Source: Neisseria bergeri
GTDB taxonomy: Bacteria > Pseudomonadota > Gammaproteobacteria > Burkholderiales > Neisseriaceae
Length of the DNA stretch: 64,000 nucleotides
Assembly: GCA_003044455.1 (NCBI GenBank)
Contig: POWY01000003.1
Span: 124,001 to 188,000 of the forward strand
Direction of reading: 5' to 3'
The notes under the pieces were generated by a model. It had not been told where the DNA came from. It did not search any database and saw nothing but the letters and a program-made list of their open reading frames with translations. How positions within the stretch are numbered: position 1 is the stretch's first letter; every line of letters starts with the position of its first letter. Below are positions 26,964-52,292 of the stretch, piece after piece. The position numbers and the translations under genes are program-made.

Positions 26964-27992
26964 ATGAAATACAAAGCCCTGTCCTTACTGCCGCTTGCCG
27001 CCGCCCTTGCCGCCTGTGCCGGGGGGGGGGTAGCCGAACCGCACGTCCCCTTCTCCATTCCCACCGCCACGCCGCTGCCCGCCGGCGAGGTAACGTTATC
27101 AAGCGATAGCAGCAACATCGAAAACATCAACACCGCCGGCACAGGAAGCACATCCGGTATTTCCATTCAGCAGCGGGAAGTAGAAAAAGAACCTTTCCCC
27201 GGCTACAAAACCAAAGAAACATCATTCATCTTCCAAACACCCGGCGGCGCGCAATACACCCTTTCATCCTACTCCGACCCCATTGTCCCCAGCTATTCCT
27301 CCCCCGACTACAAAATTCCCGACCGCTACGCCGGACAGCGGCTTGCCGACGGCAGCCGTATCTTTATCTGTTGCAGCGACTCAGGGGCAACCGGAGAAGC
27401 GGAAATTACCAAACAAGATTATATGAAATTCGGGGCGTGGATAGGCCCCAACGGCGAAATCGACCTCTTCGCCGGCGGCTTCCCCGTCGGCAAAACGCCG
27501 CCTCCTGCGTTCTCCTGGGGCAGCTCCACGACCGAAACCGCATTGTCAAAAGGCAAAATCACTTATCAGGTTTGGGGCATCCGCGTCAAAGACGGGCAAT
27601 TTGTTACTTCCTCTTATACGCCGCCCAAAGGCAGCTCTTTTACCGGTTACACCAACACCCCCGTCCGTTCCTTTATCACCGCCAATTTCAACACCCAAAA
27701 ACTAGCAGGCGAAATCATCGGCAACAGCGATTACGGGCCGAGTGTAGAAATTAAAGAAGCAGCGATTAACGGATTATCCTTTTCCGGCGATGCCACGTCC
27801 GGCGGCAAAACCGGCAAATTGGACGGCAAGTTTTTTGGCAAATTCAACGGCAGCTACGGCAACACCGAAACCAGCATAGGCGGCAAAATCACCTTTGACG
27901 GCGACCGCTCCCTCGATACCGTATTCGGCGGCGTGAGTTATGAAAAAAAACTTGATGACACCACTCAAGATACCAACCATCTCAAAAAATAA
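26964..27992 (+). CDS. hpuA: Haemoglobin-haptoglobin utilisation lipoprotein HpuA
   Basis: HpuA is a surface lipoprotein that binds haemoglobin and its haptoglobin complex and feeds HpuB. The 342-residue product has a lipobox (LAAC, cysteine 18), directly followed by a poly-G tract of ten (27021-27030) that is read as three glycines plus part of Val. The tract switches expression by slipped-strand mispairing; with ten G the frame is open, so hpuA and the downstream hpuB should be ON. The product has the two-domain HpuA layout ending in an eight-strand-type beta barrel ([41 protein letters not shown]). It is 30 bases ahead of hpuB. Confidence 0.95.
27021..27030 (+). repeat. Phase-variation tract G10 in hpuA
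   Basis: Ten consecutive G directly behind the lipobox codons. The present length keeps hpuA open; gain or loss of one G would end translation early and, through coupling, reduce HpuB. Confidence 0.95.
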
Positions 27993-39231: not shown

Positions 39232-39320
39232 GTTGTAGCATGGGCTTTGCCCACAATAATGGCGGGTAAAAGAGGTCGTCTGAAATTTTGGGTTTGATTC
39301 GTGGGCAAAGCCCGCGCTAC
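39232..39320. repeat. Inverted repeat pair with a N. mucosa-type uptake sequence
   Basis: GTAGCATGGGCTTTGCCCAC (from 39235) and GTGGGCAAAGCCCGCGCTAC (39299-39318) are inverted copies flanking AGGTCGTCTGAA (39273-39284), a DUS of the mucosa dialect. A related sequence, TAGCATGGGCTTTGCACAC, recurs at 40036 on the other side of the next two ORFs. Confidence 0.6.
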
Positions 39321-39394
39321 GGATTGGGCAGATTGGGTTGAAAACCAACAAAACCTGCATTATCTGCTTAAAAAATATCAATAAAGGGAAAATT

Positions 39395-39670
39395 ATGAAG
39401 CTGAATTATAGACAGCTTGCCTTAGAGCTGACTATGAAAATAATGGCAGTTACGGCTTTGAGTTATTTTATCAAAACCGTTTTAGAAAACTATATGATGA
39501 CGGGAAATCCAGTCGTATTACTGTTGTTGGTAGGGGAGTGTATTACGGTTTTTCTCGTGGTTTTCTCTAAATTTACGGAGACTCGAAATTTCTCTCTTTT
39601 ACCCGTATTGGCAACGATGGGGGCGACTTTTTATTTTTTTGCCATTGCGTTGGGGGGGGGGTCAAATTGA
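39395..39670 (+). CDS. N-terminal half of a phase-variable ICMT-like membrane methyltransferase (out of frame at G10)
   Basis: The 91-residue frame (MKLNYRQLALELTMKIMAVTALSYFIKTVLENYMMTGNPVVLLLLVGECITVFLVVFSKFTETRNFSLLPVLATMGATFYFFAIALGGGSN) consists of three membrane segments and stops just after a run of ten G (39652-39661). With eleven or eight G it would continue without a break into the next ORF, giving one protein of about 206 residues. AAGGG seven bases upstream supports the start. The region is AT-rich and flanked by foreign-dialect uptake sequences. I read the two ORFs as one gene in the OFF state. Confidence 0.7.
   Translation: MKLNYRQLALELTMKIMAVTALSYFIKTVLENYMMTGNPVVLLLLVGECITVFLVVFSKFTETRNFSLLPVLATMGATFYFFAIALGGGSN
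39652..39661 (+). repeat. Phase-variation tract G10 in the ICMT-like gene
   Basis: Ten consecutive G at the junction between the two halves of the gene. Tracts of this length switch genes on and off in Neisseria, as in hpuA in this window. Here ten G is the out-of-frame length. Confidence 0.85.
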
Positions 39671-40014
39671 TTTCCGATAATGTTGCATCTGTCTTGCTCG
39701 TTTTCGGCATCTGTTGGCAGATTTACGCCAAAATTTATCTGGGCAGGAGCTTCGGACTTTTACCTGCCTGTCGAACCGTGGTGGATACCGGCCCTTATCG
39801 CTTGGTACGGCATCCGATTTATTTCGGCTATTTCATCGGGCATATGGCATTTCTACTCAACAATTTCTCATTGTGGAATATTGAAGTGTTGACCCTATTG
39901 TATCTGCTTCAGTTTTTACGCATGAATTATGAAGAACAGGTGCTTAGCCGCAATGAGCAATACAGGGAATATAAATCGCGTGTGAAAAACAGGTTTATAC
40001 CGTTTTTGCTGTAA
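39667..40014 (+). CDS. C-terminal half of the ICMT-like methyltransferase (isoprenylcysteine carboxyl methyltransferase family)
   Basis: The 115-codon frame carries the family's catalytic half: GRSFGLLPACRTVVDTGPYRLVRHPIYFGYFIGHMAFLL and NYEEQVLSRNEQYREYKSRVKNRFIPFLL, that is, the RHPxYxG motif and the EE..L...YxxYxxxVxxRFIP motif that bind S-adenosylmethionine and close the active site. Its only possible own start is TTG at 39667, which overlaps the stop of the first half (TTGA), so weak coupled translation is conceivable; otherwise it is silent at G10. Bacterial members of this family are membrane-bound and mostly without a known substrate. Confidence 0.7.
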   Translation: MISDNVASVLLVFGICWQIYAKIYLGRSFGLLPACRTVVDTGPYRLVRHPIYFGYFIGHMAFLLNNFSLWNIEVLTLLYLLQFLRMNYEEQVLSRNEQYREYKSRVKNRFIPFLL

Positions 40015-40073
40015 ACCACACATAGTTAAAACCCCTAGCATGGGCTTTGCACACTGGGAGATTATTGCTAGTA

Positions 40074-40104
40074 AGGTCGTCTGAAAAGCGTTTTCAGACG
40101 ACCT
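40074..40104 (+). terminator. Terminator made of N. mucosa-dialect uptake sequences
   Basis: AGGTCGTCTGAA (40074-40085) and its inverse TTCAGACGACCT (40093-40104) form a perfect pair, followed by TTGG. It ends the methyltransferase unit. All other DUS-pair terminators here use the AT dialect apart from the fet-operon pair near 58367. Confidence 0.8.
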
Positions 40105-40179
40105 TTGGTTTTGATGGCGTAGATGGTAGAACCCACGCTATGCGGCTAATGACTTAACCCCCCCTTCGTAATACCTGCT

Positions 40180-52230: not shown

Positions 52231-52292
52231 TTTGCAAAAATCCCCCCCCCCTGTTAATATAAATAAAAATAATTATTAATTATTTTTCTTAT
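52231..52292 (+). promoter_or_regulatory. Phase-variable fetA promoter with poly-C spacer and Fur-like site
   Basis: A -35 like TTTGCA (52231-52236) and a -10 TAATAT (52255-52260) are separated by 18 bases that include ten C (52242-52251). Slippage of this tract alters the spacing and hence FetA amount, as known for fetA. The following ATAATTATTAATTATTTTTC resembles a Fur site. MpeR is a further known activator in gonococci. Confidence 0.8.

Follow-up and report, generated by a model that had tools for sequence, protein, structure and literature searches.

What does a gene encode when its reading frame is broken at a run of ten guanines, and does the run act as a switch? This question was raised by a locus in a stretch of 64,000 nucleotides from the Neisseria bergeri contig POWY01000003.1 (positions 124,001 to 188,000), referred to here as the window. 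Two frames of one gene meet at a ten-G tract located exactly at 39652-39661 on the forward strand. Altogether, the gene was read as an acquired, phase-variable, pilus-related inner-membrane methyltransferase, with a probability of about 0.5 for this reading as a whole.

The N-terminal piece (39395..39670, forward strand) comprised 91 residues with membrane helices, as judged from its frame, the relatives L003 and L004, a separate-fragment alignment and hydropathy. It began with ATG at 39395 and ended with TGA at 39668-39670, shortly 3' of the ten-G tract. A ribosome-binding-site-like AAAGGGA was found by sequence inspection at 39383..39389 on the same strand, 5 bases 5' of the ATG. The C-terminal catalytic piece (39667..40014, forward strand) comprised 115 residues, and its possible TTG start (39667-39669) shares two bases with the TGA of the N-terminal piece. 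In pairwise BLASTP, the N-terminal piece matched the N-terminal half of the single-frame relatives L003 (E 6e-08) and L004 (E 5e-10), and the C-terminal piece matched their C-terminal half with 46% and 45% identity, respectively. This ordered pairing with single-frame relatives shows that the two form one gene with a product of about 205 residues, interrupted at the ten-G tract.

Relatives were sought in the genome_contigs collection, which has one genome per species; 125 were found, and the 80 best were retained. The open frame extended at least 87 codons 5' of the matched catalytic half in all 80, and the N-terminal halves of 39 were aligned. Within the frames of the 80 kept relatives, all G runs were shorter than nine, with a maximum of eight in L040; in L034-L037 and L052, the five rows nearest to the window gene, every G or C run in the frame was shorter than six. 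In 34 columns, 80% or more of the 80 relatives agree; the window gene retained 31 of these, including all 16 invariant columns. Conservation of the RHPIYxGY and WQI columns is biased because both were used as search patterns; columns free of this bias were R36, G42, Y44, N71, R85, E89, E90, L93, Y99 and Y102. Beyond the ten-G tract, no second lesion was seen in the window gene. An earlier sequence-only reading had described two open reading frames (ORFs) meeting at ten G, switched off here, that would fuse into a single protein of about 206 residues with the complete ICMT motif set. Its coordinates and frames were borne out and the halves are out of frame in the assembly. The pieces match, in order, the halves of intact relatives of about 205 residues, and the retained columns agree with a complete motif set.

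The C-terminal piece scored above the Pfam cut-offs of both PF04191 (PEMT, 41.2 versus 25 bits) and PF04140 (35.4 versus 24 bits) and was the sole PF04191 member found in the window's genome. The N-terminal piece alone gave no Pfam match. The predicted structure of a relative showed the ICMT fold (compare Ma-ICMT, 4a2n). The profile scores of the C-terminal piece and the model of the relative make membership in the PEMT/ICMT superfamily, and the fold, almost certain. The ten-G tract lies in a Gly-coding stretch and maps to a loop preceding the helix into the catalytic half, corresponding to residues 81-91 of L034. Three specific identities were rejected. For the protein-S-isoprenylcysteine O-methyltransferase model NF040696, the C-terminal piece reached 36.5 bits against a whole-protein cut-off of 160, and six intact relatives likewise stayed below it with 25.1 to 33.5 bits. 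For LmtA (TIGR04571), it reached 23.4 bits against a whole-protein cut-off of 325, with 29.9 bits for the best of the six intact relatives. The corresponding values for MddA (NF045656) were 22.7 against a whole-protein cut-off of 270, and 23.5 bits. The proposal of a membrane methyltransferase of the ICMT/PEMT families was thus confirmed by profile search, and the label 'ICMT-like' holds for superfamily and fold but fails for an isoprenylcysteine methyltransferase.

Runs of at least ten G or C occurred three times in the 64-kb window, compared to a mean of 0.125 and a largest value of 2 in 200 first-order Markov sequences. Runs of eight G or C gave nine overlapping matches versus 1.99 expected, and nine was reached in 1 of 100 shuffles. 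All three runs of eight or more had a length of exactly ten. The second run, G10 at 27021-27030, was located within an ORF with matches to solved HpuA proteins, and this ORF is open at that length. The third, C10 at 52242-52251, was located just 5' of a TonB-receptor ORF, which we take to be fetA. Phase variation of HpuAB via poly-G is described in PMC3786947, and that of FetA appears as a title in the reference list of PMC5953494, where a G/C tract threshold of nine is given for the hypermutable class. The window gene carries such a tract of at least nine (here G10), the length of which sets the frame. Because G/C runs of at least ten are rare by chance and the others lie at hpuA-like and fetA-like loci, a slipped-strand contingency gene is the best reading, and a reversible on/off switch by tract slippage is probable from the sequence. 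The tract had already been assigned to the phase-variation class in the sequence-only reading, and its occurrence elsewhere in the window only at the hpuA-like and fetA-like loci agrees with this.

The gene was present in 1 of 46 Neisseria genomes (one per species), namely the window's own; G043 showed a weak match (E 4.2e-4) to a different family member. Within Neisseriaceae, 2 of 83 genomes matched at E <= 1e-10, the window's genome and G438, which corresponds to the Eikenella record L036. Order-wide, 20 of 399 genomes matched at E <= 1e-8, the window's included, the other 19 with 29 to 49% identity. In a plasmid collection, 32 records matched and none was from Neisseria when counted by genus. 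Two gonococcal chromosomes within this collection gave no match to the C-terminal piece in tblastn. The records NZ_CP119140.1 and NZ_CP119142.1 are chromosome-sized N. gonorrhoeae records of 2.17 Mb classed as plasmids in PLSDB. An origin as a phage gene was rejected, as no relatives were confirmed in two scans of viral_contigs and none in phages.

The gene had a G+C content of 41% versus 53% for the window. The DNA uptake sequence (DUS) variant AG-mucDUS occurred six times in the window, with three copies around the gene at 39273, 40074 and 40093; AT-DUS occurred 55 times. The copy at 39273-39284 was located inside a long inverted repeat of 94 bases (39233..39326) recognised by its fold, near copies of which were present at several sites in other Neisseria genomes (G018, G021, G023, G026, G006 and G039). 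The two inverted copies at 40074 and 40093 form a terminator-like hairpin at 40073..40105 on the forward strand, according to fold and sequence. PMC3630211 names AG-mucDUS as the repeat that prevails in N. mucosa ATCC 25996, N. sicca and N. macacae, and interprets the copies in N. meningitidis MC58 as a mark of past transfer. The AG-mucDUS cluster therefore suggests DNA from the N. mucosa/sicca group. A donor carrying the gene was not found among the genomes searched. Altogether, a foreign origin of the gene is very probable on circumstantial evidence. A gonococcal counterpart at glnE was rejected, since the gonococcal stretch L118 has another gene there, taken by eye for a helicase, and its record gave no tblastn hit with the C-terminal piece. 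The glnE of L118 was 94.1% identical to that of the window and 99.5% identical to that of G014, and by the latter value G014 is gonococcus-like; the former value places the host of the window near the gonococcus. In profile searches, the window's genome gave no match to PF02836 (beta-galactosidase type, present in 2 of the 46 genomes) or PF02563 (polysaccharide export, present in 36 of 46). The host is therefore probably not N. lactamica, nor a meningococcus with a capsule.

A first reading of the neighbours in 12 near relatives showed pilin and Tad genes. Of the 80 kept relatives, 31 had a gene for a type IV pilin, an Flp pilin or the Tad platform close by, on the strand of the methyltransferase gene. 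Eight showed a type IV prepilin motif, which in seven shared the strand and was encoded immediately upstream or at a distance of one gene: Acinetobacter L034, Moraxellaceae L037, Variovorax L038 and L042, Pseudomonas L043 and L061 and Methylophilaceae L075. The prepilin-like motif of L066 was on the opposite strand at a distance of about 3.1 kb and was not counted as linked. The Flp pilin motif was present in 18 relatives, always on the same strand. Pilin genes were thus nearby in 25 of 80, and a TadC-type neighbour was found in six more. For the 55 loci without a pilin motif, an upstream neighbour was called in 51 and scanned with Pfam in 45; downstream neighbours were scanned in 39 of 53. 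Some flanks were short. A T2SSF/TadC-type upstream neighbour was present in 6 of the 45 scanned loci. From mutual identity, these six rows were taken as L035, L057, L069, L073, L079 and L093, and Pfam confirmed the neighbour for L035 and L057. Six of the seven type IV pilins were covered by Pfam searches: those of L034, L037, L038, L043 and L061 matched the Pilin family and the N-methylation motif, and that of L075 matched the N-methylation motif alone. The L034 locus also held a second pilin on the opposite strand and a PglL-type oligosaccharyltransferase nearby.

A pilin motif was located within 1.5 kb of the gene in 24 of 80 relatives versus 0 of 17 distant superfamily members (Fisher p 0.010, uncorrected for relatedness). 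Flanks of 1.5 kb on both sides were available for 69 of the 80, and the 0 of 17 is a weak control, with flanks of at most 1.5 kb. Several of the seven linked pilins had A/P/G- or S/T-rich tails. By eye, a terminator-like hairpin was often seen between the pilin gene and the methyltransferase gene of linked relatives. In 5 of the 45 scanned loci, the neighbouring gene upstream encoded an S-adenosylmethionine synthetase (alignment A3); these loci are probably from Planctomycetes.

The tree contained 91 rows: the 80 kept relatives, nine of the ten relatives from a phylum-level sample, L003 (the same sequence as L087) and the C-terminal piece of the window; L151, a partial match, was omitted. The window piece fell into a clade of six with a support of 99/93, together with L034 and L037 (pilin neighbours), L035 (TadC-type neighbour) and the unlinked L052 and L036. 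When the linked rows alone were counted, three changes were required for type IV neighbours, three for Flp and two for TadC (at least two each by starred branches), and the kind of pilus neighbour therefore changed more than once. The pilus link holds in some parts of the family, among them the one closest to the window gene, but not throughout it.

These findings can be joined to the following mechanism. The gene would have been acquired horizontally as a contingency gene, and its product would be an inner-membrane S-adenosylmethionine-dependent methyltransferase of about 205 residues with the ICMT fold. The ten-G tract, in the loop that precedes the catalytic half, throws the halves out of frame with each other here, and this cell line should therefore make no complete enzyme. 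Slipped-strand changes in tract length would turn the enzyme on or off in a fraction of cells. In ICMT, the S-adenosylmethionine site lies at the cytoplasmic face of the membrane. The window enzyme may act at this face on type IV pilin, or on a lipid or a lipid-linked glycan destined for pilin. Substrates of this kind are the likeliest because the nearest relatives are tied to pilus genes, yet the assignment stays tentative. A lipid, quinone or protein had been left open as the substrate in the earlier proposal; the genes found around relatives speak for the pilus. Two chemical options may be considered. At the cytoplasmic face, the enzyme could methylate pilin directly; in Tad systems, the prepilin peptidases have no methylase domain (PMC10191384), unlike PilD. 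Alternatively, methylation of phosphatidylethanolamine (PE) could supply phospho-form transfer to pilin. More broadly, a new class might exist, comprising pilus-dedicated ICMT-fold methyltransferases for type IVa and Tad pili across proteobacteria, one of which was captured and placed under a ten-G switch in one Neisseria lineage. Its members would methylate pilin at the cytoplasmic face or a lipid donor used on pilin. This wider reading is doubtful.

Several observations weigh against a pilus-related, switched enzyme. The window gene is flanked by an App/Hap-like autotransporter gene and glnE, with no adjacent pilin gene, and its tract length is known from a single draft assembly in 40 contigs. 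No pilus neighbour was present in 49 of the 80 relatives as examined. In the phylum sample of 398 genomes, none of ten relatives (E <= 1e-30) had a pilin motif within 4 kb, in a search that covered pilin motifs and not Tad genes; this ruled out pilus linkage as a family-wide rule. Two members of the clade that holds the window gene, Eikenella L036 and Variovorax L052, were not pilin-linked. The shuffle test on the tree compared kinds of neighbour among linked rows and left 59 unlinked rows uncounted, and it therefore does not compare linked with unlinked relatives.

Among the alternatives, a phospholipid N-methyltransferase overlaps with the pilus-related reading. It would methylate PE head groups in the inner leaflet, and PptA-like phospho-form transferases could place methylated phosphoethanolamine or phosphocholine on pilin, so that the switch would turn phosphocholine on and off. 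PEMT was the best Pfam match, in the only PF04191 member found in the genome. Furthermore, PMC4010543 reports mono- and di-methylated phosphoethanolamine on gonococcal PilE, with an inferred methyltransferase pathway, and states that a phospholipid N-methyltransferase orthologue was not readily identifiable in neisserial genomes. However, the PEMT and ICMT profiles score alike and do not fix the substrate. The same paper describes gonococcal phosphatidylcholine as reported once and unconfirmed, and argues against control by the abundance of the donor or the modifying enzyme. The gonococcus-like G014 lacks the window gene but has another PF04191 member, and the gonococcal enzyme must therefore be another one. 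For the window gene, this alternative is unlikely.

The other PF04191 gene encodes a 169-residue membrane protein in G014 (L133:2299-2808) and in L134 (2324-2833). It has no homopolymer tract and is located near an ORF taken by eye for cysT. A gonococcal transcriptome table lists an ICMT-family gene immediately after cysT (PMC12323650). The protein is a possible candidate for the PE methyltransferase behind the methylated phospho-forms on gonococcal pilin.

A small lipophilic substrate with no tie to pili, such as a quinone, a thiol or a lipid A phosphate, is likewise improbable. It would suit the weak matches to the models of LmtA (a lipid A 1-phosphate O-methyltransferase) and MddA (a methanethiol S-methyltransferase) and the relatives without pilin neighbours, including all ten in the phylum sample. 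However, both cut-offs were missed by hundreds of bits, and of the five relatives closest in the tree, three adjoin pilus genes. A decaying pseudogene or an assembly artefact, with a fixed or mis-called homopolymer and no switching, was judged rather improbable. Homopolymers are error-prone, the genome is a single draft, and sporadic presence would suit a passing acquisition. Against this stand the absence of any other lesion, the retained conserved columns and a tract as long as the two other runs in the window, with the hpuA-like frame open at ten. Least probable is a partly active gene, in which ribosomal slippage at the ten-G tract or re-initiation at TTGA (39667-39670) gives either a little full-length protein or an enzyme in two parts: the shared stop and start bases would allow it, but no ribosome-binding site was seen by eye before the TTG, and the C-terminal half alone would be missing the first membrane helices.

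Neisseria repeatedly diversifies its surface through phase-variable decoration of pilin. If the gene is pilus-related, a methyl-sized change in pilin mass, or a new membrane head group, should track tract length. How the methylated phospho-forms on neisserial pilin arise is left open in PMC4010543. A switchable membrane methyltransferase with several pilus-linked near relatives is a candidate for the type of enzyme involved. Apart from Neisseria, the pilin-linked part of the ICMT-fold family offers a lead on unexplained pilin chemistry.

Compared to known systems, the gene combines features of three groups. Pilin-modifying enzymes such as TfpO and TfpM are often encoded close to their substrate (PMC12645811), and the genes of several relatives are similarly located directly 3' of a pilin gene, mostly past a terminator-like hairpin. 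In contrast to these oligosaccharyltransferases, the window gene belongs to a methyltransferase family and has no adjacent pilin. With the ICMT/PEMT superfamily (Ma-ICMT 4a2n, PF04140, PF04191), it shares profile scores, conserved residues and, in the model of a relative, the fold, but it is broken by a G tract and scores far below the curated isoprenylcysteine methyltransferase model. Among the open-access papers covered by title, abstract or passage, no phase-variable gene of the ICMT fold and no pilin-linked ICMT subfamily was found. Some phase-variable genes in PMC7371114 are listed only as 'uncharacterized membrane protein'. An ICMT-fold membrane methyltransferase was not seen among the neisserial contingency genes (hpuA, fetA, pptA and the pgl genes) in the passages covered. 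With these genes, the window gene shares an in-frame G tract of at least nine, of the same length as those of the hpuA-like and fetA-like loci in the window.
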